DNA of 64,000 nucleotides from Laspinema palackyanum D2c (GTDB taxonomy: Bacteria > Cyanobacteriota > Cyanobacteriia > Cyanobacteriales > Laspinemataceae), in assembly GCF_025370875.1 (NCBI RefSeq), contig NZ_JAMXFD010000001.1, forward strand, positions 224,182 to 288,181, in the 5' to 3' direction. This document shows, in pieces, positions 13,234 to 56,400 of this stretch (positions within the stretch are counted from its first letter, which is position 1; each line of letters opens with the position of its first letter). Made by a program: the position numbers and the translations under genes. A model generated the notes under the pieces. That model ran no database searches and had not been told where the DNA came from. It saw nothing but the letters and a program-made list of their open reading frames with translations.

Positions 13234-13380
13234 GATAACGACTGAAGTCGTTACTACGAACCTAGATAAGATAACGACTGAAGTCGTTACTACGAACCTA
13301 GATAAGATAACGACTGAAGTCGTTACTACGAACCTAGAACTTAAATTTCTTCGTTTGTAGTAACGACTTCAGTCGTTATC
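13234..13380. repeat. AACGACT-palindrome repeat cluster A (three reverse copies, one forward)
   Basis: Copies at 13234-13261, 13270-13297 and 13306-13333 are direct repeats with an exact 36-base period, separated by an 8-base CTAGATAA-type linker. An opposed copy lies at 13353-13380. Each 28-base unit contains AACGACT, two central bases and AGTCGTT. The opposed copy lets the region fold into a longer hairpin. It lies between the converging stomatin and Fur genes, where it might also end transcription. Confidence 0.9.
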
Positions 13381-13394
13381 CGGGTAAGCCCAAC

Positions 13395-13796
13395 TTAAAC
13401 ACTGCCATTTTGTTGCAGTAAATGACATTTATTGCAGAGTCCAAAAAACTCTAAGGTATGGTAAAATATCTTAAATCCGTGAGCCTTTTGTAGTTCCACT
13501 TCTAACTGATGAACCGGACATTCATCGAGGGGGAGGGATATGCCACATTGTAAACAAGTCAGGTGGTGCCGGTCTTGTTTTAGGCAACTATAAAGGGACT
13601 CGCCATTTGCCAAGGTCCGCACCTGGACCACCCCTTCCAACTTCAACGCTTCCAAGGCGCGATAGACGGTGGCAAGACTGACGCTTTGGTTACGATGGCG
13701 CAACTCGACATAAATATCTTGCGCGGAAATGGAGTCGTTGAGGGTTTTGAGGAAATTGAGAATACGTTCTTGAGACCGGGTGCGTTTGACTGTCAT
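13395..13796 (-). CDS. Fur family metalloregulator, probably Zur (FurB)
   Basis: 133 residues. A winged helix occupies about 1-75 (RTRSQERILNFLKTLN, SAQDIYVELRHRNQSVSLATVYRALEALKLEGVVQV). Two structural-zinc cysteine pairs, CLQC (81-84) and CNKC (121-124), flank the dimerisation region. The sequence, including ESLYS, QDRHHLTCLQCG and HTLEFFGLCNKCHL, looks closest to cyanobacterial FurB/Zur rather than the iron regulator FurA, but this is from memory of family sequences. Zur represses zinc uptake when zinc is sufficient. It faces the stomatin gene tail-to-tail and no zinc transporter adjoins. Confidence 0.85.
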   Translation of the reverse strand: MTVKRTRSQERILNFLKTLNDSISAQDIYVELRHRNQSVSLATVYRALEALKLEGVVQVRTLANGESLYSCLKQDRHHLTCLQCGISLPLDECPVHQLEVELQKAHGFKIFYHTLEFFGLCNKCHLLQQNGSV

Positions 13797-13954
13797 GGGA
13801 TTAGATTAACATCTGCATGGGTTCGTCTGGCCTACATTTCTGAAGTTAGACGAGGTTGAGGGTTTGAAAAAAGCCCGGGTGTCAGTTTGGGGATTAAAAT
13901 AAAAGATGCTGTGGCATCTAATGGCATTATCACCAGAAGTTAGGGCGGATTGTT

Positions 13955-14239
13955 GTGACTTTAAAGAAATATCAGGCTCATATCTATGTTACTCTGCGGC
14001 CTTCGGTTTTGGATCCGGCAGGAACTGCCGTGGAGTCGGGATTGCAGAAAATGGGCGATCGCAATGTGGAAGGGGTCCGCATTGGCAAATATGTGGAATT
14101 GACGATTACTTCGGAATCCCCTGAAGCAGCAACGAAACAACTCGATCGCATCTGTGACCAACTTTTAGCCAATCCTGTGATTGAAAACTATCGGTTCGAG
14201 TTAGTTGAAGTGGCAACCATGATGAAGGCGGGGGCATAA
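13955..14239 (+). CDS. purS: Phosphoribosylformylglycinamidine synthase subunit PurS
   Basis: 94 residues from a GTG at 13955. The pattern [26 protein letters not shown], then [11 protein letters not shown] and [14 protein letters not shown] is typical of PurS, the small dimeric subunit that bridges PurQ and PurL in the FGAM synthase step of purine synthesis. Four bases separate it from purQ, so the two are co-transcribed. purL is not in the window. Confidence 0.95.
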
Positions 14240-14243
14240 TACG

Positions 14244-14945
14244 GTGAAATTTGGAGTTGTAGTCTTTCCAGGTTCCAATTGCGATCGCGATGTGGCGTAT
14301 GTCACCCAAGGATTACTTGATCGTCCCACCCGGTTAGTCTGGCATCAGGAAACGGATATCTCGGATTTGGATGTGGTGGTGTTACCCGGAGGATTCAGCT
14401 ACGGGGACTATTTGCGCTGTGGGGCGATCGCCCAATTTTCCCCCGTCATGCCGGAAATCATCAAACACGCCGAACAGGGTAAATTAGTCCTGGGAATTTG
14501 TAATGGGTTCCAAGTCCTTACAGAAGCGGGACTGCTACCGGGGGCCTTAATTAGAAATCGCGACTTGCACTTTATCTGCGATCGCGTCCCGATGAAGGTG
14601 GAAAATACCCGTCTGCCTTGGACTTCCAACTACCAATCCGGGGAAATCATCACCCTACCGATTGCCCACGGGGAGGGCCGCTACTATGCCGATGCGGATA
14701 CCCTCGCCCAACTGGAAGAGAATGGACAGGTGGTGTTTCGCTATTGCAGTCCCCAAGGGGAAAGTAATCCGGAGAGTAATCCCAATGGGTCCTTAAACCA
14801 GATTGCTGGGATCTGCAATTCCCGAGGGAATGTTTTAGGCATGATGCCCCATCCCGAACGGGCATCGGACCCCATGTTAGGGGATACCGATGGGATGAAA
14901 TTGTTTGAAAGCGTGTTAACTGCTGCGATCGCTGGAGTCCGATAA
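14244..14945 (+). CDS. purQ: Phosphoribosylformylglycinamidine synthase subunit PurQ (glutaminase)
   Basis: 233 residues from a GTG at 14244. This class I glutamine amidotransferase has [25 protein letters not shown], the nucleophile elbow LGICNGFQ with Cys86, and the catalytic His/Glu in MMPHPERA. It releases ammonia from glutamine and feeds it to PurL to make formylglycinamidine ribonucleotide in the cytoplasm. The length is normal for bacterial PurQ. It directly follows purS. Confidence 0.96.
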
Positions 14946-14970
14946 CGGTTTGGAGTCAGGAGTTGTTTGA

Positions 14971-15134
14971 GGGGACCGGAAAAGAGGACTTCTCCCCCCT
15001 TTCAAAAGTGGACCCCACCCTAACCCTCCCCTTGCCAAGGGGAGGGGACCGGAAAAGAGGACTTCTCCCCCCTTTCAAGAGTGGACCCCACCCTAACCCT
15101 CCCCTTGGCAAGGGGAGGGGACCGGAAGTGCACT
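14971..15134. repeat. Tandem repeat with 73-base period containing a CCTCCCCTTG/CAAGGGGAGG hairpin
   Basis: Two nearly identical 73-base units begin at 14971 and 15044, with the start of a third at 15117. Each has GGGGACCGGAAAAGAGG, a run of C, and ACCCTAACCCTCCCC followed by the hairpin. A related single copy occurs near 36374-36425. The plus-strand open frame through it (14963-15346) has low-complexity repeat-encoded sequence and is not called a gene. Confidence 0.85.
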
Positions 15135-15458
15135 TAAAGCGGTTAGGTCCTCTTTTTCCGGTTTCGGTACTGTATCGGTCAGAAACTGGGTTTTTTGTGA
15201 AATATTTGGAGCAATTTGTGCTAAATCTGGGCCAAAAACCTGGTTTCTTGTCCCTTGAGAATCAAGACTCTATTGATACTTTCCATGAGAACAACAACTT
15301 TAGCAATGCTACCAATGGAAATCGGAACTCGATTGCGATAAGCTAGGATTTAATTTCCCCGAGACAGGAATGGGGAAGGGAGTAGATTTGGAACGGGCGA
15401 AAAAATAGAATTATAAACGTCATGGTTACGGGGAAACGAATTCACAACTGATTCAATC

Positions 15459-16577
15459 GTGAAACGAACCCAGGAAAACCCAATTGTTCAGACTAAAGAA
15501 GGGAGGGAGATCGTGAGGTCACCTAAATTAATGGGATGGGTGTTAGCGTTGTCTGTGATGATAACACCTCAGTTAGCCGTTGGACAATCTATTGAAGAAC
15601 TTTCGCAACAGGGCAATACTGCATTTACGGCGGGAAATTATGCCCAAGCGGAACAGATTTGGCGTCAGATTGTGACGCAGGATGCGAATAATCCAGCGGC
15701 TCATATTTGGCTCGGGTTATCCTTATTTTATCAGGATAAGGTGGAAGAGGCAATCGCCCAGTATCGGCAAGCGTTAGTCTTGGACCCAAATAATGCCAGT
15801 GCGTATAATAATTTGGGAAATGCCTACACCGATCGCCAACAACATGAGGAGGCGATCGCTGCCTATCAGCAAGCATTACGCCTGAACCCCAATCAAGGGC
15901 AGACCTTTTTTAATCTAGGAGTTGCCCTCACTGCGGTGAAGCGAGGGGATGAGGCACTCGCTGCCTATCGTCGCGCAGTCGCCCTTGATCCGAATGATGC
16001 GGAAGCGCAAGTAAAAATTGCTAATTTGCTGGTTCGGCAGAACAAGTTAGATGAGGCTGTCACTGCTTATCGGACGGCGATCGGGCTCAATGCCAATGAT
16101 GCGGAGGCGCATCTGAATTTGGGGTTAGCTTTAGCGCGTCAGGATAAAGTAGACGAGGCGATCGCCGCCTATCGGCAAGCGCTGAATATCAATCCCAATC
16201 TCGCCGAAGTGCATAATAATTTGGGTGTGATGTTGCGACGGCAGAACAAGTTAGAGGAAGCGACTGCCGCTTATGAACGGGCGATCGCCATCTCACCGAA
16301 TCTGGCTACAGCATATAATGGGTTAGCCGCAGTCTATCGAGAACAGGGCAACTTGGACCAAGCCATTGCCGCCTATCGCCGTGCTTTAGCCCTCCCGGAT
16401 CGACCGGCAAATCCAGCCAGTGCTCATACTTTGGCGCATAATGGATTGGGACTAACCCTGAAGCAACAAGGCAACATTGCGGAGGCGATCGAGCAATTCC
16501 AACGGGCGATCGAACTCTCCCCCAATTACGCCCCAGCGCAATACAATCTCACTCAAGCTCAACAGCGATCAAATTAA
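15459..16577 (+). CDS. Secreted or periplasmic tetratricopeptide-repeat protein
   Basis: 372 residues from GTG 15459. A hydrophobic stretch at about 25-43 ending AVGQS looks like a signal peptide; starts nearer to it (a GTG at 15513 or the ATG at 15531) are possible. From about 46 onward it is a near-continuous array of nine or so 34-residue TPR units with the consensus AxxxYRxALxLxPNxAxAxxNLG. TPR arrays are protein-binding scaffolds; partners cannot be deduced. It is preceded by about 500 bases of repeats and followed by a non-coding region. Confidence 0.85.
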   Translation: MKRTQENPIVQTKEGREIVRSPKLMGWVLALSVMITPQLAVGQSIEELSQQGNTAFTAGNYAQAEQIWRQIVTQDANNPAAHIWLGLSLFYQDKVEEAIAQYRQALVLDPNNASAYNNLGNAYTDRQQHEEAIAAYQQALRLNPNQGQTFFNLGVALTAVKRGDEALAAYRRAVALDPNDAEAQVKIANLLVRQNKLDEAVTAYRTAIGLNANDAEAHLNLGLALARQDKVDEAIAAYRQALNINPNLAEVHNNLGVMLRRQNKLEEATAAYERAIAISPNLATAYNGLAAVYREQGNLDQAIAAYRRALALPDRPANPASAHTLAHNGLGLTLKQQGNIAEAIEQFQRAIELSPNYAPAQYNLTQAQQRSN

Positions 16578-17082
16578 TTCCCCCAAGGGACGCGGCAATC
16601 CCGCGTCCTCTTTCTTTGCCAAGAGATCATCGCTAAAAAGGCAGTTGATTCCCGAGCGCAGAAATAACAATAGCTCGTGATCAATAGATTACAATTCATC
16701 TGATTTGGTTGCAAATTGTGATTTTTTATGAAAATTTTGTCATGTCCGGACAGAAGTAGGGGTGGGGTCTATCCTCTAAGGGAACTCCAAAAAATAAAAC
16801 CCGCAAAAAGTTCAACGTCCCCCCTTGACGGGGTTTCTTTAAAGATGACTCAGTTCATGAGTCACTACGAACGTTTATATGATTTATTTGTTGGAAATCC
16901 CTAAGTATTAGACCCGGGGACTGCCGGTAAAAAACCTACCGTGGTAAGCCCCCATCTCCCCCATTCCTCGATTACCGGAACAGGAACTGCCTGAGTTGTA
17001 AAACCAGCCAGTAACCGAATGGTTGAGAATTGCCCAATTCGGGGTTAAATAATTTAAGCTCTTTCGCGATTTGTGAAGATTT
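16578..17082. other. Intergenic region with a diverged member of the main repeat family
   Basis: No gene seen. GTTCAACGTCCC at 16810-16821 and a perfect hairpin TGACTCA-GTTCA-TGAGTCA followed by CTACGAAC (16846-16872) are related in layout to the AACGACT repeats. The hairpin CCCC-TTGA-CGGGG with a T-rich tail near 16820-16840 may act as a terminator. Confidence 0.5.
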
Positions 17083-18738
17083 GTGTCTGACCTAAAAAAA
17101 CCCGCTCGTTCTCTAGCTGGAATTGCCGGTCTTGTGGCGATCGCCACTTTGATCAGTAAAGTCTTTGGTTTAGTGCGTCAACAGGCGATCGCCGCTGCTT
17201 TTGGGGTCGGTCCTGCCTTTGATGCCTATAACTATGCTTATGTGATCCCCGGTTTTTTGCTGATTTTACTCGGGGGCATCAATGGACCCTTCCATAGCGC
17301 GATCGTCAGCGTCTTGGCTAAACGTAAACCGGAAGAAGCAGCCCCCCTCGTCGAAACCATCACCACCCTGATTGGCGGATTGCTGCTGATTGTCGCCGGG
17401 GTTTTAGTCCTGTTTGCCGAACCTCTGATGGGTTTAGTCGCACCAGGTTTGAACATTTCAGCAGCAGAAGCAGCGGCCCAGGGCCTTTCTACCCCAGAAT
17501 TTGAAACCCTGCAACTGACCCATGCGATCGCCATCCAACAATTCCGGATCATGGCCCCCCTCGCTCTCCTCGCCGGATTGATTGGCATTGGATTCGGAGC
17601 CCTCAATGCTGCTGACCATTATTGGATTCCCTCCATCAGTCCCCTCTTTTCCAGTGTGGCGCTCATCGGTGCTTTAGGCATCTTCATCCTGCAAGCAGGC
17701 CGTGATATTGGCCTTCCTGAATATGCCATGACGGGTGGGATGGTGTTAGCTTGGGGAACCCTTGCCGGGGCGATTCTCCAGTGGGTGGTGCAAGTGGTGA
17801 CCCAGTGGCGCAGCGGCTTAGGAACCTTACGTCTGCGGTTTGAGTTTAATCATCCCGGGGTTAAAGAGGTGATGAAGGTCCTGGGACCGGCCACCTTCTC
17901 CTCGGGAATGCTCCAAATTAATGTCTATACAGACTTGTTTTTCGCGTCTTACATTCCCCAAGCGGCGGCTGCTTTAGGTTATGCCGGACTGCTGGTCCAG
18001 ACGCCCTTGGGGATTGTTTCTAATATGTTGTTAGTGCCGCTATTGCCGGTATTTTCCCGATTAGCTGACCCCAATGATTGGCCACAACTGAAACAGCGGA
18101 TTCGCCAGGGGTTGATGCTGACGGGGCTAACAATGTTACCTCTGGGCGCTTTTACTATTGCTTTGTCCGTGGCGATCGTGCGCGTCATTTATGAACGCGG
18201 GGCCTTTGACCAAGCCGCTTCAGCATTTGTCGCCCCGATGCTGATGGCCTATGGAATTGGGATGTTTGTTTATTTGGGACGGGATGTGCTAGTCCGGGTG
18301 TTTTATGCCTTGGGAGATGGGGATACGCCGTTTCGGGTGAGTATGGTGAATATTTTTCTGAATGCGGTCCTGGACTTCTTTATGGTGAGAGCATTTGGCG
18401 CACCGGGTTTGGTTCTCGCAACGGTGGGAGTGAATATTATTTCGATGCTGGCGCTGTTGATTTTGCTCGATCGCAAGCTGAATGGATTGCCTTTAGCCGA
18501 GTGGAGTAAACCGATCGCCTTGTTAACCGGCGCAAGTGCGGTAGCCGGTGTGGTCAGTTGGGTGATTCTCCAAGGTTGCGATCGCTACTTTGAAGGGACT
18601 GGATTATTGATTTATCTCGTGGAATTGGGTCTGTCTAGTTTGGGGGGATTCTTGGTATTTGTGGCGATCGTCACGCAAATCGAATTACCCGAAGTAGATA
18701 TATTTATGCAGCGCATCCGTCAACGCTTTGGGCGATAA
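17083..18738 (+). CDS. murJ: Lipid II flippase MurJ (MviN family)
   Basis: 551 residues from a GTG at 17083. It has many hydrophobic helices (about 14 expected for the family) and the MVF-family N-terminus ARSLAGIAGLVAIATLISKVFGLVRQQAIAAAFG. AADHYWIPSISPLF, VKEVMKVLGPATFSSGMLQINVYTDLFFAS and RVIYERGAFD are also typical. MurJ moves lipid-linked peptidoglycan precursors across the plasma membrane. A hairpin terminator follows at 18771-18797. The gene stands alone. Confidence 0.93.
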   Translation: MSDLKKPARSLAGIAGLVAIATLISKVFGLVRQQAIAAAFGVGPAFDAYNYAYVIPGFLLILLGGINGPFHSAIVSVLAKRKPEEAAPLVETITTLIGGLLLIVAGVLVLFAEPLMGLVAPGLNISAAEAAAQGLSTPEFETLQLTHAIAIQQFRIMAPLALLAGLIGIGFGALNAADHYWIPSISPLFSSVALIGALGIFILQAGRDIGLPEYAMTGGMVLAWGTLAGAILQWVVQVVTQWRSGLGTLRLRFEFNHPGVKEVMKVLGPATFSSGMLQINVYTDLFFASYIPQAAAALGYAGLLVQTPLGIVSNMLLVPLLPVFSRLADPNDWPQLKQRIRQGLMLTGLTMLPLGAFTIALSVAIVRVIYERGAFDQAASAFVAPMLMAYGIGMFVYLGRDVLVRVFYALGDGDTPFRVSMVNIFLNAVLDFFMVRAFGAPGLVLATVGVNIISMLALLILLDRKLNGLPLAEWSKPIALLTGASAVAGVVSWVILQGCDRYFEGTGLLIYLVELGLSSLGGFLVFVAIVTQIELPEVDIFMQRIRQRFGR

Positions 18739-18770
18739 ACTGGAGCTGAAGCCCGGATTTTGATTGCCTT

Positions 18771-18797
18771 AATAGCCCGCTTGAGCGGGCTATTTTA
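18771..18797. terminator. Bidirectional hairpin terminator between murJ and the DUF1648 gene
   Basis: AATAGCCCGC, loop TTGA, GCGGGCTATT, followed by TTA. The A/T flanks allow termination of the two converging genes on either strand. Confidence 0.75.
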
Positions 18798-18828
18798 ATG
18801 GAGAACAATTCCAAAGTAGGCATGGAGT

Positions 18829-19344
18829 CTAATATAGGTTCTGTTCCGCTTGTTGGAAATAAAAGGCGATCGTTCCGCCTAGAAATATCACCCCGGTAAA
18901 AATTAAAACAGTCCCGATCGCACTAGCTTGTCCCAATCCGACTTGAATCATCTGCCAGTTAATCAAGAAAAATAGCCAGATAATTTGTACCTTCATCCAT
19001 CCAAACAGTTCACGCACCAGTCCTAACAGTCGGTCCCCTTGGTCCTCGGTTATCGGGAACGGACTCTCTAACAGTTGCGGCAACAACGGGGAAAGGGTTA
19101 AAACGAGGTAAATACAAGTTCCCATGCTGGGTAATAGCCACAGAATCGGTTTGGAACCCCAGTTATCCGGTTGTCCAGTGATGCCAAAATGAATGGGGAT
19201 AGTCTCGGGAAGGTTTCCCCAGGATTGGACAATCGCCAGAAAGGTGCAGAGAATCCCGGCTAAAGCGGCAATTTCCAAAGCCAGTTCCAGAGGCGATCGC
19301 ACGATTGCTTTTAACAGACTTTCCGTGTTTTTGTTTCTATTCAT
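18829..19344 (-). CDS. DUF1648 membrane protein
   Basis: 171 residues from the ATG at 19344; another ATG lies at 19350. DUF1648 signature: WGNLPETIPIHFGITGQPDNWGSKPILWLLP after the first membrane helix (LALEIAALAGILCTFLAIV). Three further hydrophobic segments follow: GTCIYLVLTLSPLLPQLL, IIWLFFLINWQM and AIGTVLIFTGVIFLGGTIAFYF. DUF1648 proteins such as SdpI in Bacillus can be immunity or sensor proteins, but the family is broad and no toxin gene is next door. Role unknown. Confidence 0.8.
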   Translation of the reverse strand: MNRNKNTESLLKAIVRSPLELALEIAALAGILCTFLAIVQSWGNLPETIPIHFGITGQPDNWGSKPILWLLPSMGTCIYLVLTLSPLLPQLLESPFPITEDQGDRLLGLVRELFGWMKVQIIWLFFLINWQMIQVGLGQASAIGTVLIFTGVIFLGGTIAFYFQQAEQNLY

Positions 19345-19832
19345 AAGCATTTTTAAGCCAAGGTGATACCGATTGTTTTCTATCTTAGCGAATTACCTCG
19401 GAACCGGCTTGCCTCTTCCGGGGTAAATGGGTCACCCTGTTTGCATCGGCTTACCCTAGAGAAGAGAGTCAGCTAATTCATGTCGATCCTAACCCCTCCA
19501 TACTTTTGATTTGTCCGGAAATCTCCATATTCATTCTGTTCTTCCATCCCGGTCTCTAATAGGAGTCTATCTCTCGATTTCAAAGTAACGATCTTGACAG
19601 AATCCTCAAAATTTGGTATTAAAAATAACAAACGGGTATCATCAGAATTTCCGGCGGCATATAGCCCGCTTAAATGAATTGTCCTCAGACTGCAAGACGC
19701 GCTATAACTGCTCTTATCAAGAGTTCTTAACCATAAAAGAAGGCCAATCGTACTCCACCGGGAAGGAGAGAGCTACTATTAGGGCATCGGGTCATAATCC
19801 AGCTCACAATCTAATCCCCATAAAACAAGTCC
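19345..19832. other. Divergent intergenic region before the polyphosphate kinase gene
   Basis: About 490 bases with promoters for both neighbours expected. An open frame at 19613-19843 overlaps the next gene and has no recognisable features. I see no repeat or RNA gene. Confidence 0.4.
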
Positions 19833-21323
19833 ATGTTAGATAACCTTGATCTCAAACTTTCCCTGGATAAAAAGACATATCACGAACAGATCGAAGCCTT
19901 GATGCAGCAGATCCGACAGCTCCAACAAGCCTGTTGGGAAAAAAAACTCACCTCTATCTTCGTGTTAGAAGGTTGGACGGCTGCCGGGAAAGGGTCTCTG
20001 GTCAAAAAAATGGTCGGTTATATGGACCCCCGGGGATTTCAAGTTCATCCGATCTGGCCCCCCAATGAAGAAGCGCGGCAACACCATTTTCTGTGGCGAT
20101 TTTGGCAAAAACTGCCAGCGCGAGGCAGTATGGGAATTTTCTATCACAGTTGGTACATTCGGATGTTAGAAGATCGGTTATTTGGCCGACTGACGGATGC
20201 CGAAGTCCCCACGGTGATTCGACAAATCAATGCCTTTGAGCGGCAGATGGTGGATGATGGCGTGGCGATCGCCAAATTCTGGATTCACATCAGCGAAAAA
20301 GAACTGAAGCGACGGCTGAAAAAATCTGAGGCAGACCCCCTCACCGCTTGGCGAGTCCGTCCCGAAGACTGGCAACAAGCCAAAAAATACGACACCTACA
20401 GGGCCTTAGCCGAAGACATGGTGATTCAAACCAGTACCGGACCCGCTCCTTGGACCCTGGTTGAAGGAGACAATCAGCGCTGGGCACGGGTGAAAGTGCT
20501 GGCCAAAATGGCAACCACCCTCACCGAAGCCCTCGATCGCCTCCATTATCACCTACCCGTGCCGAGTTTACCCCCCCAAGAACAACTCCAACCCACGGAA
20601 CCGGATTTTCTCTCTCAAATCGATCTGAGTGTGAGCTTAGATAAACAAGACTATAAAAAACAACTCCGCAAAGAACAAGTTGAACTCACGAAACTGCAAC
20701 TGGAGATTCACGAACAAGAAATCCCCGTCCTCGTGTTATTTGAAGGATGGGACGCCGCTGGCAAAGGGGGAGCCATCAAACGCTTGACCGATGTCCTCGA
20801 CCCCCGCAGTTATGCCGTCAATGCCTTTGCTGCACCGAGTACGGAAGAATTAGCCCATCATTACCTCTGGCGGTTCTGGCGACGATTACCTCTCCCAGGC
20901 ACCATTGGCATTTTCGATCGCAGTTGGTATGGTCGAGTTTTAGTCGAACGCATCGAGGGATTTGCCAGCGAACCAGAATGGCGCAGAGCGTATCGAGAAA
21001 TCAATGAATTTGAAGAACAACTCACCAGTGCCGGTTATGCCGTGGTTAAATTCTGGCTGCATATTAGCCCGGAAGAACAACTCAAGCGGTTCAATGAACG
21101 CAGCAACAATCAGTTTAAGGAACATAAGCTCACCGATGAAGATTGGCGCAATCGGGAGCAGTGGCCCCTCTATAATGTGGCTGTGAATCAGATGATTCAG
21201 CGGACCAGTACCCCCTCGGCCCCTTGGACAGTGATCCCGGGGAATGATAAATATTATGCCCGAGTCAAAGTGATCCAAACCGTGATTCAGGCGATCGAGA
21301 CTGAAATCAAACATCGCAAATAA
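19833..21323 (+). CDS. pap: Polyphosphate:AMP phosphotransferase (two-domain PPK2)
   Basis: 496 residues with two tandem PPK2 domains. The first has Walker A GWTAAGKGS near residue 47 and the second GWDAAGKGG near 305; both have the lid and Walker B-like stretches (GSMGIFYHSWY, GTIGIFDRSWYGRVLVER). The second domain has the canonical DRSWYGR motif while the first has YHSWYIR, so the second is probably the catalytic one, as in class II PPK2 enzymes. The family phosphorylates AMP to ADP with polyphosphate. The start is the ATG at 19833. Confidence 0.9.
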   Translation: MLDNLDLKLSLDKKTYHEQIEALMQQIRQLQQACWEKKLTSIFVLEGWTAAGKGSLVKKMVGYMDPRGFQVHPIWPPNEEARQHHFLWRFWQKLPARGSMGIFYHSWYIRMLEDRLFGRLTDAEVPTVIRQINAFERQMVDDGVAIAKFWIHISEKELKRRLKKSEADPLTAWRVRPEDWQQAKKYDTYRALAEDMVIQTSTGPAPWTLVEGDNQRWARVKVLAKMATTLTEALDRLHYHLPVPSLPPQEQLQPTEPDFLSQIDLSVSLDKQDYKKQLRKEQVELTKLQLEIHEQEIPVLVLFEGWDAAGKGGAIKRLTDVLDPRSYAVNAFAAPSTEELAHHYLWRFWRRLPLPGTIGIFDRSWYGRVLVERIEGFASEPEWRRAYREINEFEEQLTSAGYAVVKFWLHISPEEQLKRFNERSNNQFKEHKLTDEDWRNREQWPLYNVAVNQMIQRTSTPSAPWTVIPGNDKYYARVKVIQTVIQAIETEIKHRK

Positions 21324-23932: not shown

Positions 23933-24165
23933 GTTCGTAGTAACGACTTCAGTCGTTACCGCGTTACTTGGCTGATGCCAAGTAACGCCCCTGTGGACGC
24001 TTCAGATTCACTCCCCAAACAGGCGCTTAAGCCTAGAAGGGTGCGTGTCATGGCGATCGCCATGACACGCGAGCAACGACTGAAGTCGTTACTACAAACG
24101 AGGCGGAAACGACTGAAGTCGTTACTACAAACGAGGCGGAAACGACTGAAGTCGTTACTACAAAC
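23933..24165. repeat. AACGACT-palindrome repeat cluster B with extra hairpins
   Basis: One forward copy (23933-23960), then a perfect 12-base-stem hairpin GCGTTACTTGGC-TGAT-GCCAAGTAACGC (23961-23988), then a perfect 28-base palindrome centred on HIP1 (24043-24070), then three reverse copies at about 24073, 24106 and 24139 with a 33-base period. It fills the gap between the DUF218 and ABC exporter genes. Confidence 0.9.
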
Positions 24166-38230: not shown

Positions 38231-38462
38231 GTTCAACGTCCCGACTTCAGTCGTTCTCTTCAATTGTTCGTAGTAACGACTTCAGTCGTTCCCTCCTGTT
38301 CGTAGTAACGACTTCAGTCGTTCCCTCCTGTTCAACGTCCCGACTTCAGTCATTCTCTTCAATTGTTCGTAGTAACGACTTCAGTCGTTCTCTTCAATTG
38401 TTCGTAGTAACGACTGAAGTCGTTCTCTTCAATTGTTCGTAGTAACGACTGAAGTCGTTATC
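38231..38462. repeat. AACGACT-palindrome repeat cluster C, seven copies in one direction
   Basis: Copies start at 38231, 38266, 38298, 38330, 38365, 38400 and 38435, so the period is 32 or 35 bases. Copies 1 and 4 have the flank GTTCAACGTCCC in place of GTTCGTAGTAAC. Copy 4 has one stem mismatch (AGTCATT). Copies 6 and 7 have the two central bases as GA instead of TC while the flank keeps its direction. It begins seven bases after the acetyltransferase stop. Confidence 0.92.
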
Positions 38463-48747: not shown

Positions 48748-48854
48748 CGTTGAATCCGGCTCCCCTTCTCCCATTTTGGGAGAAGGGGTTGGGGGATGAG
48801 GGCTGCTAAATGGTCAGATGTAGCCGAAGCCGATCGCCTCAGAGTAACCCGTCC

Positions 48855-48885: not shown

Positions 48886-48916
48886 CATTCTCATTCAGGA
48901 TATCCTTTCCCAAAAC

Positions 48917-49441
48917 TTAATAAGCGTCTTGTAACTCGTAAAATTCTGGGGAAATATAATCCTTCCGTAACGGCCAACCGACCCAATCTTCCGGCATCAA
49001 AATCCGCTTCAAATTTGGATGTCCTTCATAAACAATGCCATACATATCATAGGATTCCCGTTCCTGGAAATCGGCGGCTTTCCAGATCCAGTAGACCGAT
49101 GGCACTGAAGGATTTTCTCTGGGAACGAACACTTTGATGCGAACTTCCTCCGGGCGATCGGCAAAGTCCGTGACCTTAATTAAGTGATACATACTCACCA
49201 AATCTTGTCCCGGACCTGGATCGTAACCGCACTGACATTGGAGATAATTGAATCCGTAGGCATAGAGTGCCGTAGATAACGGAATCAAAAATTGAGCATC
49301 AACCTTGAGGATTTCTACCCCCAGATGATCCGGTTCTAAAGCTTCATGTTGAAAGCCATTTTCAGTCAACCATTTAGAAACTTTCCCCGTGGGGACAATT
49401 TTCTCTTCAGAAGCTTGGGTTTCTTTCTTCTCTTCAGGCAC
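48917..49441 (-). CDS. ndhJ: NAD(P)H-quinone oxidoreductase subunit J
   Basis: 174 residues from a GTG at 49441. It has the 30-kDa subunit signature: [52 protein letters not shown]-like region and [28 protein letters not shown]. NdhJ is in the peripheral hydrophilic arm of the NDH-1 complex, which accepts electrons from ferredoxin for cyclic flow and respiration. Its first codons overlap the end of ndhK by eight bases, so the genes are translated together. Confidence 0.96.
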
Positions 49442-50171
49442 GTTTTTCCTCCTTCTTCTGACTCGCTTTGAGGGCGGGGGGTACGGGCATTCCGATCGCC
49501 TCGGTTAACTCCTTCGGTGGGTTTTGGCGCGTGGCAGACTGCAAATAAGTCCCCGTCAGAATCGGGTCAACCGCTTTCATATTGTGCTGGCGAGTGTAGT
49601 AGCGGTGGGATTGCTTAATTTGACCTCGTTCCTGGATCGCATCATTGGAGATTTTCTTGCGAAGTTTGATGATTGCATCAATCACCGCTTCGGGACGAGG
49701 AGGACACCCCGGCATATAGACATCCACGGGAATCAGTTTGTCCACTCCACGCACTGCGGTGGGTGAATCTGCCGAAAACATTCCGCCGGTAATGGTGCAA
49801 GCGCCCATTGCGATCACATATTTCGGTTCCGGCATTTGCTCATACAGACGCACCAAAATGGGTGCGTATTTCATGGTAATCGTACCGGCGGTAATGATTA
49901 AATCCGCTTGGCGAGGACTAGAACGAGGGACCAAACCGAAGCGATCAAAGTCAAACCGGGACCCGATTAAGGCGGCAAATTCAATGAAACAGCAGGCAGT
50001 GCCGTACATTAGGGGCCAAAGGCTAGAGAGTCTCGCCCAGTTGTGGAGGTCATCAACGGTGGTGAGGATGACATTTTCTGAGAGTTCCTGAGTGACTTCC
50101 GGTCGGGCGATCGGGTTGATGAGCCGTCCTTCACTCAGATTTGGGGGAGTTGAATTAGATTTCATGACCAT
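49434..50171 (-). CDS. ndhK: NAD(P)H-quinone oxidoreductase subunit K
   Basis: 245 residues, or 243 from the ATG at 50165 that overlaps the ndhC stop as ATGA. The N2 iron-sulfur cluster cysteines are in [17 protein letters not shown] and [16 protein letters not shown]. NdhK carries the 4Fe-4S cluster that passes electrons to plastoquinone. The C-terminal extension (about 205-245) is variable in cyanobacteria. It is the middle gene of ndhC-ndhK-ndhJ. Confidence 0.96.
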
Positions 50172-50524
50172 TCTAAGGCTCCTTTACGCCATGCATACAC
50201 GAGAGCAATCACAAGGATTGTGATAAAAATGAGGGCTTCAATAAAGGCCAACACTCCGAGTCGGTGGAATGCGACAGCCCAGGGATACAGAAAGACAGTC
50301 TCAACATCAAAGACCACAAAGACCAGGGCAAACATATAGTAACGGATATTAAACTGGATCCATGCCCCGCCAATGGGTTCGACGCCGGATTCATAAGTGG
50401 TTCGCCGTTCAGGAGAGGTTGCTTTGGGTCTAACTAATCTCGATGTACTGAGGGCCAGGATCGGGACTAGGCTGCAAACTAACAGGAAACCCAGGAGATA
50501 TTCGTAGCCGGAGAGGACAAACAC
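50162..50524 (-). CDS. ndhC: NAD(P)H-quinone oxidoreductase subunit 3
   Basis: 120 residues with three membrane helices ([65 protein letters not shown]). The conserved [31 protein letters not shown] is diagnostic. This is a membrane subunit near the quinone site of NDH-1 and the first gene of the operon. It faces rubA across about 540 bases that hold repeat cluster D. Confidence 0.96.
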
Positions 50525-50658
50525 AATAAGTAACTCTAGCCAGATAGGACTTGTACGACTGGTTTACATTTTTACATAATTGTGGAGGCAGCCGCTAAGA
50601 GAACTGTTTGTCTGGGATGGGTCCACCCCGAGGCCCGTCTTCTGTGAGCACATCACCT

Positions 50659-50935
50659 GTTCGTAGTAACGACTTCAGTCGTTCTCTTAGGTTCGTAGTA
50701 ACGACTTCAGTCGTTATCCAGTGTTCATCGCGATCGCCAGCAACCCTTTCAGGAGAGTTTAAACCCTTGCCAGTTGTGGCTATGGGGGCAGTGGCGCGGT
50801 GATTATCCATCCGGAAACGACTGAAGTCGTTACTACGAACCGGAGGGAACGACTGAAGTCGTTACTACGAACATGGATAACGACTGAAGTCGTTACTACG
50901 AACAGGAGGGAACGACTGAAGTCATTACTACGAAC
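50659..50935. repeat. AACGACT-palindrome repeat cluster D, two forward and four reverse copies
   Basis: Forward copies at 50659-50686 and 50691-50718. Reverse copies start near 50813, 50845, 50876 and 50908, a period of about 32 bases. The last has one stem mismatch (AGTCATT). The cluster lies in the divergent region between ndhC and rubA, so it is transcribed in or flanks both leaders. Confidence 0.9.
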
Positions 50936-51064
50936 TGGGGAGAATCGGGTGGGGCCGATCGCGAAGATTTAACCTGTAACCGTTAGGAATGGAAAGCGGT
51001 TCACTACTATGTCATAATCTTTAACATCGTTTTAATGTTTGGACCTTCCCATCCTTTGAGTTCG

Positions 51065-51400
51065 ATGAACACTGAAGAAGCCGTTCAACCTCAAGAACTA
51101 GATCAGTATGAATGCCGCTCATGCGGCTACGTTTATGAACCCGAGAAGGGAGATGGCCGTAAAATTGCTCCTGAAACAGCCTTTACGGATGTTCCCCTGA
51201 CTTGGCGCTGCCCGGTTTGTGGGGCCAAACCCACACAATTTAGCAACATTGGACCGAAAGGGACTGCCTCGGGGTTTAAGGAAAATTACGGTTTTGGATT
51301 TGGGGCCAATACCCTGACTGGGGCGCAGAAAAATATCTTGATTTTTAGTGCTTTGGCACTCGGATTCATCTTTTTTCTGAGTTTGTATGGTTTACGCTAA
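51065..51400 (+). CDS. rubA: Membrane-anchored rubredoxin RubA
   Basis: 111 residues from the ATG at 51065; an ATG at 51035 would add ten residues. The iron site is ECRSCGYVYEPEKGD and RCPVCGAKPTQF, four cysteines. A C-terminal helix (NILIFSALALGFIFFLSLYGL) anchors it in the membrane. RubA is needed for photosystem II, and also photosystem I, assembly in cyanobacteria. Gene order rubA-ycf48-psbEFLJ is conserved. Confidence 0.93.
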   Translation: MNTEEAVQPQELDQYECRSCGYVYEPEKGDGRKIAPETAFTDVPLTWRCPVCGAKPTQFSNIGPKGTASGFKENYGFGFGANTLTGAQKNILIFSALALGFIFFLSLYGLR

Positions 51401-51524
51401 GGAACTGAGTTGCTAGAACCCCTCACCCTAAGCTCAAAGTAGCCGCTAACTGCCGGGGTAACGGCCCGATTGGTTTGGGTGTTACGCCCGTTGATGATTG
51501 AGAAATAGATAAATTTTGAAGGTG

Positions 51525-52529
51525 ATGGACTCCATCTTAAAAAGTTTGAAACGAATTGTTGCATTGCTTGCGGTTGTCCTACTCTGTGTCAGTTGCAGCA
51601 AGGTCCCCTCTGTAAGTTACAACCCTTGGAATGTCGTCCCTTTACCCACAGAAGCTAATCTTAATGACATTAGCTTTACCGATGACCTCCAGCATGGATG
51701 GTTAGTGGGCTCTGAAGCGACGCTGCTAGAAACTGCCGATGGTGGCAAAACCTGGGAACTCAAGCAGTTAGGCTTGGATGACGAACGTTCTCGCCTGAAT
51801 TCGGTTAGTTTTGCGGGTTCAGAGGGATGGATCGTCGGTGAACCTTCAATTTTGCTGCATACTACAGATACGGGAAAATCTTGGGAACAAATTGGACTCA
51901 GCGATAAGCTCCCGGGTAGTCCTTTAACGATTGTTGCTCTGGGGTCCAATTCGGCGGAAATGACCACTAATGTTGGGGCGATCTATCGCACCCAAGATGG
52001 TGGAAAAACCTGGAAGGCAATGGTAGAAGAGGCGGTTGGGGTGATTAGAAATCTCGATCGCTCGCCGGATGGGAAATATATCGCCGTCTCTGCGAAAGGA
52101 AACTTCTTCTCGATCTGGGAACCGGGTCAAAGTGCCTGGGCTCCTCATAATCGCAACAGTTCCCGACGCATCCAAAATATGGGATTTTCCGCTGATGGTC
52201 GTCTGTGGATGTTGGCCCGTGGGGGTCAGTTGCAATTTAGCACTCCAGAGGATCCGGAAAACTGGGATGAAGCGATCTATCCTGAGTTTTCTACAAGCTG
52301 GGGACTGCTGGATTTAGCTTATCGGACCCCAGATGAACTGTGGATTGGGGGCGGCAGTGGGAATTTACTCCAGAGTACCGATGGCGGCATCACCTGGAAA
52401 AAAGACCGTGAGGTAGAGGATGTGCCTTCTAATTTTTACAAGGTTCTGTTCCTGAATGAAGAGATGGGTTTTGCGATCGGTCAGCAAGGGATTCTCCTCA
52501 AATATGAAGGGACCTCGGAAGCGGCCTAA
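51525..52529 (+). CDS. ycf48: Photosystem II assembly factor Ycf48
   Basis: 334 residues from the ATG at 51525; a GTG at 51522 and a TTG at 51516 are alternatives. A lipoprotein signal (IVALLAVVLLCVSCSKV) predicts lipid attachment to a lumenal cysteine. The rest is a seven-bladed propeller with recurring GGKTWE-type motifs (DGGKTWELK, DTGKSWEQI, DGGKTWKAM, DGGITWKKD). The family assists early D1 assembly and repair (HCF136 in plants). The second gene of the operon. Confidence 0.95.
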   Translation: MDSILKSLKRIVALLAVVLLCVSCSKVPSVSYNPWNVVPLPTEANLNDISFTDDLQHGWLVGSEATLLETADGGKTWELKQLGLDDERSRLNSVSFAGSEGWIVGEPSILLHTTDTGKSWEQIGLSDKLPGSPLTIVALGSNSAEMTTNVGAIYRTQDGGKTWKAMVEEAVGVIRNLDRSPDGKYIAVSAKGNFFSIWEPGQSAWAPHNRNSSRRIQNMGFSADGRLWMLARGGQLQFSTPEDPENWDEAIYPEFSTSWGLLDLAYRTPDELWIGGGSGNLLQSTDGGITWKKDREVEDVPSNFYKVLFLNEEMGFAIGQQGILLKYEGTSEAA

Positions 52530-52661
52530 CTTTAGGCCCTTAAGAACCGGGAGGGCGATCGCAGCAGTTTTCGGATTTTATTCCCTGAACTTGCTTGTGA
52601 TGGTTTCTGAAGTTTTGTATCATAGATTAAGATTTTGCGCGTTGTTAGAGGAGGAATCTGA

Positions 52662-52913
52662 ATGTCTACAGGCTCGACTGGAGAACGTCCGTTTGCTGAT
52701 ATTGTTACCAGCATTCGCTATTGGGTGATTCACAGCATCACCATTCCGGCCTTATTTATCGCTGGTTGGCTGTTTGTGAGCACTGGGTTAGCCTACGATG
52801 CGTTTGGCACCCCTCGTCCGAACGAATATTTCAGCCAAGAACGCTTGGAACTGCCGATCGTTCAGGATCGCTTTAATGCGAAAGACCAGATTAACGACTT
52901 GATGATTAAGTAA
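52662..52913 (+). CDS. psbE: Cytochrome b559 subunit alpha
   Basis: 83 residues, the family length. One membrane helix with the haem-ligating histidine in [21 protein letters not shown], and the lumenal [20 protein letters not shown]. It pairs with PsbF to bind one haem in photosystem II. A ribosome site GAGGAGG lies eight bases upstream. Confidence 0.98.
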
Positions 52914-52937
52914 ATCAATTTCAGGAGGTAGTCCATC

Positions 52938-53072
52938 GTGACGACAAATCGTTCAAACGAGCCAATTTCTTATCCCATTTTTACCGTTCGCTGGATAGCT
53001 GTTCATACCCTAGCTGTTCCTACGGTATTCTTCCTGGGTGCGATCGCGGCAATGCAGTTCATTCAACGATAA
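52938..53072 (+). CDS. psbF: Cytochrome b559 subunit beta
   Basis: 44 residues from a GTG at 52938 with AGGAGG upstream. Reads [19 protein letters not shown], with the haem ligand histidine in [10 protein letters not shown], and ends MQFIQR. Gap to psbE 24 bases. Confidence 0.98.
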
Positions 53073-53087
53073 GTTTAGGAGAAGTCA

Positions 53088-53210
53088 ATGCCATCTCGCA
53101 GTTCTAATCCCAACAAGCAACCTGTTGAACTTAACCGGACTTCCCTCTACTTGGGCTTACTTCTGGTCTTCGTTCTCGGGATTCTGTTTTCCAGTTATTT
53201 CTTCAACTAA
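53088..53210 (+). CDS. psbL: Photosystem II protein L
   Basis: 40 residues. [20 protein letters not shown] then ending LFSSYFFN, a single helix. AGGAG ribosome site just upstream; 15 bases after psbF. Confidence 0.97.
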
Positions 53211-53278
53211 CTGGTGAAGTTTGTCTAGTTTGAGTTGATTTAACCAAGTCCGTAATTTTTAATGGGGAGGCAAGTGTC

Positions 53279-53398
53279 ATGTCTGGAGAAACAAGAATTC
53301 CTTTGTGGATTATCGGTACGATCGCCGGGATGGGTGTCCTCACGGTTGTGGGTCTGTTCTTCTATGGAGCCTACGTTGGTGTAGGTTCCTCGATGTAG
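53279..53398 (+). CDS. psbJ: Photosystem II protein J
   Basis: 39 residues. [20 protein letters not shown], single helix, ending [17 protein letters not shown] ribosome site upstream. The last gene of the operon, followed by a terminator. Confidence 0.97.
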
Positions 53399-53453
53399 AT
53401 TTTGGTTCTATCTGTATTAAGAGATTAACCTCTAAAATCTAACCATCCCGAAT

Positions 53454-53489
53454 AAAAATGCCGCCCACTTTACAGCAGGCGGTATTTTT
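53454..53489 (+). terminator. Terminator of the rubA-psbJ operon
   Basis: AAAAATGCCGCC and GGCGGTATTTTT form a stem (one G-T pair) with a 12-base loop and a T run, 55 bases after psbJ. Confidence 0.88.
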
Positions 53490-53536
53490 ATGACCGTTAT
53501 TCATAAAAAAACCCACACCCTCCAATATCCTCTAAT

Positions 53537-53983
53537 GTTCGTAGTAACGCCTTCAGGCGTTATCTTTCCCCCGTTCGTAGTAACGACTTCAGTCGTTATC
53601 TTTCTTAGTTCGTAGTAACGACTTCAGTCGTTATCTTTCCCCCGTTCGTAGTAACGACTTCAGTCGTTATCTTTCCCTTGTTCGTAGTAACGACTTCAGT
53701 CGTTATCTTTCCCCCGTTCGTAGTATTTGCAGATATTTGGCGGCGATCGCAACAACCGCCATGAAGATCGGGAACCTTTAAACCCCAGGCGCTTGCCTGG
53801 GGGAACGACTGAAGTCGTTACTACGAACAAAGATAACGACTGAAGTCGTTACTACAAACAAAGATAACGACTGAAGTCGTTACTACAAACAAAGATAACG
53901 ACTGAAGTCGTTACTACGAACAAAGATAACGACTGAAGTCGTTACTACGAACAAAGATAACGACTGAAGTCGTTACTACGAAC
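53537..53983. repeat. AACGACT-palindrome repeat cluster E: six forward and six reverse copies facing each other
   Basis: Forward copies start at 53537, 53573, 53608, 53644 and 53680, with a truncated one at 53716, a 35-36 base period with TTTCCCCC-type linkers. A central segment (53727-53802) includes the hairpin CCCCAGGC-GCTT-GCCTGGGG. Reverse copies start at about 53803, 53832, 53863, 53894, 53925 and 53956, a 31-base period with AAA linkers. The first copy has the stem changed to AACGCCT/AGGCGTT. It lies between converging genes. Confidence 0.95.
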
Positions 53984-54014
53984 AACGCTGAATCTTATCT
54001 TGACCCCTAACAGT

Positions 54015-56138
54015 TTATAGAGGCAAAATCGGTGGACCTGGGGGTGAAATTTGCCGTTCATGGGAGACTTTGTGACTCTCGCGTTGGGTTTGCATTTCCA
54101 CAGCGATCGCCTCAAATTGCACCTGCAAACTGCCATAAGGCACCATTAACTCCCGACTGCCTTCCACATCCCCGAATCCCGTCGGCCAAAACTGAGTTAA
54201 CCAGTGGGGTCCATCCAGAACCGTCCGACTTTGGCGATCGAGTACCCATAATTTCACATAAATTCGGGGTAGCATCTGCGGCAGTTGCACCGTGACTCTG
54301 ACCGATCGCCCTGCGCTTAATTCTCCCTTGGGTAAACTCAGGCGCGGGTTGGGAACTGGCTGATCTGCCGGTAACAGCAAGAGGGCCGCCCCTTCAGTTT
54401 TAGCACTAGCAGCCGCAACCGCAGCTTCCGCAATTAACTCATCATCAACGACAATTTCCCGGGCTTCCCAGTCGATCTCCTCGGGTTCCAGAGGCATTCT
54501 GCGAGAGCCTTCTGGATGATTCTCATCTCCTGCCGCCTGTGCGATCGCCTCATCCATCTCAAATGGATTTTGTTCCGACTCCTCAGAAACTGGAGTAAAA
54601 CTAATTTTCAGCCAATCGGACAATTCGCGATCGCCCGCCAAGGCATTCAACCGAGAAAAGAACCGATCCTGTAAATGCAAGGATTGAAACGCTTGATCCA
54701 CCGGAGAAGCCTTTTTAGCAACCCGATCCGGTTCTGATTTCACCTCCAAGGAGGCGGCAGTTGCCTCAGATTCCGCTGGTGTAGTCGGCAATTCCTGGGG
54801 AACTGGTGCCCTCGTGTTCGGGGTTTCCGGTTCTGCCGGGGTGGCGATCGCCGGATCTGGCGGTTTCACTTCCTCTGCTGGCGGTGACGGTTGAGGACGA
54901 TTAAAGCTTGGCAAATCCAGGGGTTTCCCGGCTTGGGGTGATTTTGCCTGGGGTTTAACAATCTGTGGCGGCAACACCTGATTTCCCGAGGGTTCAAAGG
55001 AAATCGGTTGACTCTTCTTAATCGTTTCTAGAATTTCATCAAACGAGGCATCGATTTCTTCAACATTCTGCTGATGAATCGATTCCCGAGAATGCTCTAA
55101 TAGCTTATCCTCACTCAAGTCTGGAGAAATCGCCCCGAGTAAGTCATCTAAATCCGCAGTAATCGTAAACGATCGCCGTCTTAACTGAGTCCCACTGCCA
55201 TCAGACAAACTCACCTCTCCTAACAGCAGATGACTTTTTGTCTGTTCTGGAATCTCCACAGGACAAGAGAATGGCATCGGTAGCGTTCCCGCAGACAGGG
55301 GATGTGCCACCTCAACAATTTTTGCTCCAGTCTGGGGATTTTGCAGCATCACCCGCAATTCTAAACCGGGAAGGCGATCGCCTATCTTGCCATCAACCGC
55401 CTCAATGCGTCCCTCTAACGTTAAAACTTTACCCCATTTCACCATATAGGTTTCCTGCTGCAACACCAGTTGCAAGGGCGGCAGTTTTTGAGGGTGTGCC
55501 TGGGGTGGGGAGGGGGGAACCGGAGGAGGACTGGTCCTGGACCCTTCCGCCATTGAGGGGAGGCGATCGGGAAAAGCGTACAATTTGCCCGGGAGGGAGG
55601 GGTCCGCAACGGGTGTGGTAGTTCCTGGGTTCTGTTCTTGTGGCAACCCTGCTGCCTCATCTTCAGCAACCGCTTCAGCGGCAGCTTGTAGGCGATCGGC
55701 CCCTTCCACCTGGGAAAATTCTTCTTCCTGATCCGATTCCGTTTCCTCCTCGAAACCCGAAGTCAGACCCCCGGAGAAATCGCTACCCCCTTCTTCCTCG
55801 ATGGATAACACCTCAACCCGAATCGAACCCTGAGTCGTTTGGTCCAGAAAACAGGTAAAATCCCAAAATCCCGGCTTGAGGCGAGTAAACGGGATCACCA
55901 CCATCAAACCCTCTGCATTCGTGCGAGTCCCCCGCTTCTGCATCCGACGCTTCGGCGGAAACTCTTCCGACGATTGATAAATCGCCCGAATCTCCACCGG
56001 CACATTATTCCGGCTACACCGCGCAACCATGCGATAGCGCCCTTCCAAAATTTCCACTTCTGGAGATTCAACGGAAAGCCACGAGCGATCGCCTTCTTTC
56101 TGGATCAGAAATTCCCAGTCTTCCATCGGTTCCGACAC
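54015..56138 (-). CDS. Large conserved cyanobacterial protein of unknown function
   Basis: 707 residues from a GTG at 56138; an ATG at 56126 is an alternative. The N-terminal 110 residues are a beta-rich domain (WEFLIQKEGDRSWLSVESPEVEILEGRYRMVARC, GFWDFTCFLDQTTQGSIRVEVLSIEE). An acidic, proline-rich linker follows (about 112-215), then a second beta-rich domain (LVLQQETYMVKWGKVLTLEGRIEAVDG). Another long acidic/proline linker leads to a C-terminal domain with LSLPKGELSAGRSVRVTVQLPQMLPRIYVKLWVLDRQSRTVLDGP. The repeated beta domains may be related to one another. No signal peptide or enzymatic motif. Role unknown. Confidence 0.8.
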   Translation of the reverse strand: MSEPMEDWEFLIQKEGDRSWLSVESPEVEILEGRYRMVARCSRNNVPVEIRAIYQSSEEFPPKRRMQKRGTRTNAEGLMVVIPFTRLKPGFWDFTCFLDQTTQGSIRVEVLSIEEEGGSDFSGGLTSGFEEETESDQEEEFSQVEGADRLQAAAEAVAEDEAAGLPQEQNPGTTTPVADPSLPGKLYAFPDRLPSMAEGSRTSPPPVPPSPPQAHPQKLPPLQLVLQQETYMVKWGKVLTLEGRIEAVDGKIGDRLPGLELRVMLQNPQTGAKIVEVAHPLSAGTLPMPFSCPVEIPEQTKSHLLLGEVSLSDGSGTQLRRRSFTITADLDDLLGAISPDLSEDKLLEHSRESIHQQNVEEIDASFDEILETIKKSQPISFEPSGNQVLPPQIVKPQAKSPQAGKPLDLPSFNRPQPSPPAEEVKPPDPAIATPAEPETPNTRAPVPQELPTTPAESEATAASLEVKSEPDRVAKKASPVDQAFQSLHLQDRFFSRLNALAGDRELSDWLKISFTPVSEESEQNPFEMDEAIAQAAGDENHPEGSRRMPLEPEEIDWEAREIVVDDELIAEAAVAAASAKTEGAALLLLPADQPVPNPRLSLPKGELSAGRSVRVTVQLPQMLPRIYVKLWVLDRQSRTVLDGPHWLTQFWPTGFGDVEGSRELMVPYGSLQVQFEAIAVEMQTQRESHKVSHERQISPPGPPILPL

Positions 56139-56231
56139 AGATAACCCTTGCCTGAGTTGTTTTTGCCAATTATGTCTGTCAGTTTAACCCACCTAGAGCG
56201 CATCTGGAATCACCCCACCCCCTTGAGTTGG

Positions 56232-56333
56232 CAAAGCCCTACACCCTCAAGGGTGCAGCTACACGAACAAAGCCTGCAAAGTCCTACACCCTCAAGGGTG
56301 CGGCTACACGAACAAAGCCTGCCTACGCAGGCT
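56232..56333. repeat. Two tandem 45-base units plus a hairpin
   Basis: Units at 56232-56276 and 56277-56321 differ at two or three positions, each containing CACCCT-CA-AGGGTG. The second merges into the perfect hairpin AGCCTGC-CTAC-GCAGGCT (56316-56333). The open frame through it is not called a gene. Confidence 0.8.
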
Positions 56334-56372
56334 CAAGAGAAGAGAGACTTTTAAACACGAGCTTTGCTTTTC

Positions 56373-56400
56373 GTTCGTAGTAACGACTTCAGTCGTTTCC
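56373..56400 (+). repeat. Single AACGACT-palindrome repeat (F)
   Basis: One forward copy ending CGTTTCC, 54 bases upstream of the desaturase ATG. Confidence 0.85.

Follow-up and report, generated by a model that had tools for sequence, protein, structure and literature searches.

A GTAG-REP family and its probable RAYT transposase in the cyanobacterium Laspinema palackyanum D2c

A stretch of 64,000 nucleotides from the cyanobacterium Laspinema palackyanum D2c (contig NZ_JAMXFD010000001.1, positions 224,182 to 288,181), here called the window, carries a family of short palindromic repeats at six places. Most likely these belong to an ordinary kind of element, a family of repetitive extragenic palindromes (REPs) with its REP-associated tyrosine transposase (RAYT, also TnpAREP), and very probably they are mobilised in trans by a single chromosomal RAYT whose gene lies outside the window. 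An earlier sequence-only reading of the window had hesitated between a non-autonomous element family and a structured site; the first of these is supported, as the copies are REPs and their likely RAYT has been found. The recognition of a REP by its RAYT, and the persistence of REP populations of hundreds of copies in a genome, have in the literature searched been studied mostly in Proteobacteria. The genus of L. palackyanum offers a natural experiment on both: the enzyme is present or absent at one locus, and copy number and decay differ accordingly.

The repeat unit and the RAYT gene

The unit has a GTTC-GTAG tag at the foot of the hairpin TAACGAC-TTCA-GTCGTTA, which folds as single-stranded DNA into a stem of 7 bp and a loop of 4 nt. 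Thirty-one copies inside the window match GTAGTAACGACTNNAGTCGTT at three mismatches or fewer; together with two copies bearing the tag GTTCAACGT (38231, 38330) and one truncated tag (53716-53724) they make up the approximately 34 copies at six occupied places that had been reported from the sequence. The whole genome, 7.03 Mb in 81 contigs, yields 651 exact matches to GTAGTAACGACTNNAGTCGTT; the reversed control yields none. Contig C1 (658.7 kb), which includes the window, has 108 copies at up to three mismatches, where the reversed sequence has 2; the 108 copies form 30 clusters, six of them single copies and four of them double. The 78 neighbour pairs in C1 comprise 63 head to tail, 11 inverted with the tags outside and 4 inverted with the tags inside, and 8 of the 11 are spaced 96-123 bp apart. 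As a gap of 10-16 bp follows the 21-base unit in 56 of the 63 head-to-tail pairs, the tandem periods of 31-36 bases given earlier are right for most arrays. Judged by simple calls of open reading frames (ORFs), no copy in the window lies within a gene, as had been claimed; across C1 two of the 108 copies overlap an ORF of at least 120 aa, while such ORFs occupy 78% of the contig.

These are the traits of the GTAG-REP superfamily: a GTAG tetranucleotide left unpaired at one end of the palindrome, a stem within the range of 6-9 bp closed by a short loop, and a high copy number combined with intergenic placement. The GTAG was visible in the unit before any search was made, and the later searches require it by construction. 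GTT precedes the tag in at least 103 of the 108 C1 copies, though the search pattern did not require it. A test of stem pairing within C1 gave 0.97 against 0.93 for shuffled units, and says little because the shuffled value is nearly as high.

Three genes of the genome match Y1_Tnp and none of them lies within the window. The earlier statement that there is no RAYT therefore stands for the window and fails for the genome, where one RAYT gene, at C42:30018-30557, adjoins REPs of the window type. At least seven copies on the plus strand lie upstream of it, with a masked stretch among them, and the last ends 32-33 bp before the start codon. The protein scores 92.9 bits with the NCBIfam model REP_Tyr_transpos (cut-off 80) and matches the TnpAREP structure PDB 4er8 by sequence (E 1.3e-7); a modelled relative from Nostoc (mean predicted local distance difference test, pLDDT, 87) finds the same entry at rank 1 of a fold search (E 6.6e-9). 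NHYH and Y-x-H-x-N-P are invariant in 24 relatives (alignment A1), with YIHYNP as the majority form, so that the HUH and Y---NP motifs expected of the protein of a REPtron, or RAYT system, are both present. The second mark of a REPtron, the same REP in opposite orientations on either side of the RAYT gene, is seen in the relative G150, in L. palackyanum D2c itself and in the relative G130. The G150 orthologue has five plus copies upstream and four minus copies downstream; in D2c the downstream side consists of two minus copies at the start of C1, assigned by synteny. In D2c the assembly breaks at this locus, with one part on C42 and the other at the start of C1; as synteny joins the two, the gene probably lies about 224 kb to the left of the window. 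All three RAYT-bearing genomes of the genus share this locus.

A second RAYT-like gene of D2c (L032, G000:C7:117088-117426) is surrounded by another repeat, AGAAACCGGGTTTCT, which has 26 forward and 29 reverse matches in C1 with one mismatch allowed and occurs at five places in the window (8555, 34196, 34249, 44823 and 58774).

Copy number, decay and competing explanations

Within the genus, the three of eight genomes that bear the RAYT (93-100% identical) contain 651, 1168 and 921 exact copies, against 129, 41, 40 and 147 in the four without it. The REP copies are also more decayed where the RAYT is missing: in the five of the eight genomes compared, exact copies as a share of those with at most one mismatch amount to 0.88 and 0.90 with the enzyme and to 0.78, 0.62 and 0.51 without. 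Copy number and intactness are high where the gene is found in the genus. Two of the RAYT-less genomes (G148 and G079) have an empty site, at which roughly 10 bp separate the flanks of the locus and REP relics remain; in two others (G113 and G143) the flanks are not adjacent but stand far from each other or on separate contigs, in the latter case not at a contig end, and no RAYT was found there.

Across 148 genomes of the order, a close RAYT (above 200 bits, the next match scoring 51) occurs in 24. The pattern GTTYGTAGTN5CTTYAG, which describes hairpins with five variable stem bases, has 6083 copies against 9 for the reversed control, and the median per genome is 24 where a RAYT is present and 0 where it is absent (p 1.6e-7, with no correction for descent). 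Among the 124 genomes lacking both of the RAYT clades described below, 97 have five or fewer copies of each of the two REP types. The five-base pattern requires GTTY and the four-base pattern covers some stems only, and the counts from both are lower bounds. The tracking of copy number with RAYT, which the sequence-only reading had proposed to look for, is therefore seen in the genus with one exception (G149) and less cleanly over the order.

Further afield, relatives of the RAYT occur in Nostoc, Westiellopsis, Anabaena, Chloroflexota, Acidobacteriota and others among the best 80 matches listed, and a phylum-wide search with alignment A1 gave matches with E no higher than 1e-30 in 15 of 386 genomes; in the rows listed it scored at most nine candidates per genome, and it may miss some. 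A search of a plasmid collection gave two records with weak partial matches and no close RAYT. Five viral contigs (L215-L219) contain one exact copy each of the window REP core, and in a member of the Terriglobia (Acidobacteriota; L154) the identical 21-mer REP GTAGTAACGACTTCAGTCGTT stands beside a RAYT that is just 47% identical.

By analogy with the enzymes of E. coli, Stenotrophomonas and Marinomonas, as described in PMC8266576, the RAYT would bind the folded single-stranded hairpin and read its GTAG foot and TTYA loop; its tyrosine would cut nearby, perhaps at a CT, and the strand would be joined elsewhere. Inverted arrays about 100-120 bp apart would act as the dispersing unit, similar to the REP doublets known as REPINs. 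Arrays would then lengthen locally, by tandem duplication: within arrays, many spacer pairs are identical (28 of 61), but hardly any are between clusters (5 of 1435).

Several observations weigh against mobilisation by this RAYT. The eighth genome of the genus, G149, has 951 exact copies and no close RAYT was found in it; its gene may sit in an assembly gap, because both flanks of the locus stop exactly at contig ends (C4 18860 of 18860; C331 26132 of 26132), an explanation that is circumstantial. Over the order, nine RAYT-less genomes, three of them in the genus, hold at least 50 five-base copies and five hold at least 50 four-base copies, for which loss, assembly gaps or other enzymes could be the cause. 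Conversely, in ten RAYT-bearing genomes the five-base pattern has 0-3 matches; in nine of them the RAYT is of the other, four-base clade, and in the tenth, G126, the REPs of the clade A gene lack the GTTY required by the pattern. At the locus itself, the RAYT of G130 has six plus copies upstream and, downstream, only an inverted array of the GTTCAACGT variant with no intact copies, and G150 carries the RAYT yet has no copy at the syntenic site of one of the window clusters (cluster D). A CT dinucleotide stands near the hairpin in 83 of the 108 C1 copies against a shuffled mean of 77.4, hardly above base composition, and inverted pairs, the usual REPIN unit, are the minority among neighbours (11 of 78, against 63 head to tail).

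The repeats might instead act mainly as RNA, as transcript ends or 3'-stabilising hairpins under host selection, the RAYT being a by-product. REPs of E. coli are described as stabilising RNA 3' ends (PMC13289151), the copies here lie in intergenic DNA, and a whole array can fold very stably, as calculated for one cluster with DNA parameters. We nevertheless regard such a role as improbable. Convergent-gene contexts are not significantly enriched (8 of 29, p 0.14), several syntenic sites in relatives are without copies, and the unpaired tag GTTYGTAGT is conserved although an RNA terminator has no need of it. The structured RNA of the sequence-only reading fares no better, as an Rfam scan of the window returned no family at gathering score and the distribution of the element follows that of an enzyme which processes DNA.

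The name miniature inverted-repeat transposable elements (MITEs) is often given to short palindromic repeats, and the genome does contain an IS200-like transposase (L031). That the repeats are the MITEs of an ordinary insertion sequence of the DDE or IS200/IS605 kind, with no connection to the RAYT, is nonetheless very improbable: no REP copies were found at L031 (the DDE transposases of the genome were not searched), and the tag, the RAYT locus shared by three genomes and the matched hairpin types favour the RAYT. An array of the kind formed by clustered regularly interspaced short palindromic repeats (CRISPR), or another array of regularly spaced palindromes, is suggested by the 28-base palindromic unit and its regular spacing and can practically be set aside, as the spacers are mostly 10-16 bp long and often identical within an array and the sites are dispersed in both orientations.

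Two RAYT clades and two hairpin lengths

The reading of the repeats as REPs served by a RAYT gains detail from the relatives of the enzyme. In a tree of 50 RAYT rows, 13 rows form one clade with support 100/98 (clade B). Its genes lack residue 122 (D2c numbering) in 15 of 15 cases, that is, in the 13 tree rows and in two genes found later, L234 and L238, which carry the deletion and are not on the tree. In clade A, Arg122 is present in 33 of 34 rows, with His in the last; these rows represent 32 distinct genes, since L144/L235 and L141/L237 are duplicate records judged by matching coordinates. For the clade count, L147 and L229 were taken as records of L054, and L230 as a record of L043. One further gene, L052, is of the clade A type by motif, has one in-frame stop and was kept apart from the count; it has five-base hairpins with another apex, which the pattern does not count.

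The hairpins differ along with the enzymes. If the variable stem bases are taken as those between GTAGT and CTTYAG, REPs within 500 bp of clade A RAYTs have five of them in 34 of 34 rows, and REPs within the same distance of clade B RAYTs have four in 14 of 15; the remaining gene, L059, has no REPs by pattern and little sequence on one side. A second, broken RAYT copy in G032, with one in-frame stop and outside the 15, also has the residue deleted and eight four-base REPs nearby. Genome-wide, five-base copies outnumber four-base copies in 14 of 14 genomes where only clade A was found, and the reverse is true in 9 of 9 where only clade B was found, although one of these (G022) rests on 1 copy against 0; for the genome counts of clade against REP type, Fisher's test gives 1.2e-6, uncorrected for descent. 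G126 holds both enzyme clades, each beside REPs of its own length. The pattern finds five-base REPs beside four of 14 relatives further out (L152-L155, L157-L166) and none beside the other ten; L153 has GTAG hairpins with another apex. The stem bases of REPs in other genera differ and still pair, at 0.87 of positions against 0.54 for shuffled units, in 47 units near RAYT genes that were found without requiring pairing (L043 counted once); pair counts from alignment A2 were excluded because its units had been chosen for pairing.

Two simple accounts were ruled out. Clade B has not lost its REPs, as its hairpins are merely one stem base shorter. Nor does plain protein length serve as a ruler: L043 and L139, and further out L154, L155 and L157, have one residue more in the same loop of the protein and still have five-base REPs.

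Arg122 lies three residues before the conserved Trp that opens the GTAG-reading segment, as aligned to 4er8; in the E. coli enzyme, the segment led by this Trp is described as contacting GTAG (PMC6006769). The enzyme would measure how far the TTYA loop is from the GTAG foot. That residue 122 by itself decides which hairpin length a RAYT serves is a reading that we hold to be less likely than not. Other positions also separate the clades, 51 and 92 almost completely and 72 and 97 mostly, and the deletion of Arg122 is a single event in the tree. Because the switch occurs once there, descent may be the cause of the match between clade and hairpin. Both clades, with their respective REP types, are found within host family f28 and again within f32, an argument against descent of the hosts only. 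In any case, clades with few consistent differences serve hairpins that are one base apart, and this makes the recognition rule testable in vitro.

The tag varies as well: six RAYTs (L044 in G139, L047, L048, L054, L055 and L150) are flanked by REPs tagged GTTG rather than GTAG, and G139 has GTTG-tagged copies elsewhere too.

Known families and the clusters of the window

GTAG at the foot of the palindrome is the hallmark of one large group of REPs (Di Nocera 2013, PMC3733652). The repeats described here resemble the GTAG-REPs of that account in having GTAG at the foot of a short palindrome, a short TY loop, high copy number, intergenic placement and a RAYT nearby; clustered, tandemly reiterated units occur in both, while head-to-tail units make up as many as 63 of 78 neighbour pairs here. 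The same work lists the cyanobacterial families GTAG-12, -15 and -16, GTAG-12 coming from filamentous cyanobacteria. In the literature searched, the present family is new, GTAG-12 being known by its description only and the small dispersed repeat (SDR) sequences of Elhai et al. 2008 being uncompared. Literature searches for the core sequence in both orientations gave no match; GTTCGTAGT occurs in 154 papers, and the matches listed for it, 15 in number, were all unrelated by title. The earlier remark that no published description was known is thus borne out for the sequence and not for the kind of element, which has been described (Di Nocera 2013; Quentin 2018).

In its traits the protein resembles TnpAREP subclass 2.8 of Quentin 2018 (PMC6006769), with which it shares NHYH, W then Y, YIHYNP, a proline-rich N-terminus, a cyanobacterial host and flanking GT[AG]G repeats. 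Compared by eye with the published table, the D2c protein and the 24 rows of alignment A1 show the subclass signature; in relatives, C or F can also follow W. Subclass 2.8 is given as 8 proteins with 'long' hairpins, whereas the hairpins here are short by that paper's own definition; therefore we claim a match to the protein signature of 2.8 and not full membership. The short-hairpin rule given there asks for three G/C among the first four stem bases, and stems starting AACG or AAGC would be missed by it because they have fewer. Furthermore, the relatives found here extend to Chloroflexota, Acidobacteriota and others, where the text of PMC6006769 mentions other phyla without detail.

The inverted, spaced pairs resemble the REPINs of Bertels and Rainey 2011 (PMC3116915) in that they could fold as a long hairpin and are linked to a RAYT. 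In that work, however, 93% of doublets are inverted and most REPINs are solitary, whereas tandem arrays dominate here. The Marinomonas group 3 REPtron (PMC8266576) is described as requiring T, T and A of its loop TTTA, the third base being free, and it is at this third base that the TTYA loop varies here. It belongs to another RAYT group, and its GTAG is separated from the stem by 2 bases as opposed to 0 here.

In the window, cluster A (13234-13380) consists of three minus copies (13237-13257, 13273-13293, 13309-13329) and one plus copy (13357-13377), and is also present at the syntenic site of G150, the sole relative whose compared stretch extended that far. Orientations in such syntenic comparisons can read palindromes on either strand and were counted only where checked by eye. 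Cluster B (23933-24165) has one plus copy (23937-23957), a spacer of 117 bp and three minus copies (24075-24161); the spacer encloses two further hairpins, which begin near 23962 and 24046. It was found at the syntenic site of G150 and is missing in G113 and G143. Cluster C (38231-38462) contains five plus copies head to tail and the two GTTCAACGT-tagged copies, and as a whole is assigned to the plus strand.

Cluster D (50659-50935), with two plus copies, a spacer of 100 bp and four minus copies, folds as single-stranded DNA with an energy of -91 kcal/mol, where shuffled sequences average -36. Its syntenic site has no copies in G113, G143, G148 and G150, two degenerate copies in G079 and sixteen (8 plus and 8 minus) in G130. 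Cluster E (53537-53983) has five plus copies, the truncated tag and six minus copies, and the first of its copies (53541) shows a compensated stem change, AACGCCT-TC-AGGCGTT. The cluster, which takes up 522 bp in the window, is kept in G150 and G130; G143 and G079 have 33 and 34 bp in its place, and the site in G113 holds a different insert. Clusters are present in some genomes and missing from others at syntenic sites, a pattern in favour of mobility. A single plus copy at 56373-56400, from the repeat search, is the last in the window.

Other repeats accompany these sites. In G113, the places that correspond to clusters D and E are occupied by insertions of a TGTAGGGGCG-type repeat. Within C1, 5 of the 11 inverted-pair spacers enclose a larger hairpin, CGTTACTTGGC..GCCAAGTAACG, and 4 of these 5 hold a second hairpin of the TGTTATGGC..GCCATAACA type; the places concerned are about 23962 and 24046 of the window and C1 29931, 300155, 410462 and 476386, and in C1 both hairpins were seen only near REPs. 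A variant of the REP that has another sequence instead of GTAG, GTTCAACGTC-CGACTTCAGTCG, stands at 38231 and 38330 of the window and at eleven places in C1, often beside normal REPs; in G130 it forms the array downstream of the RAYT (L037, about 1021-1190), and it resembles the iREPs of E. coli.

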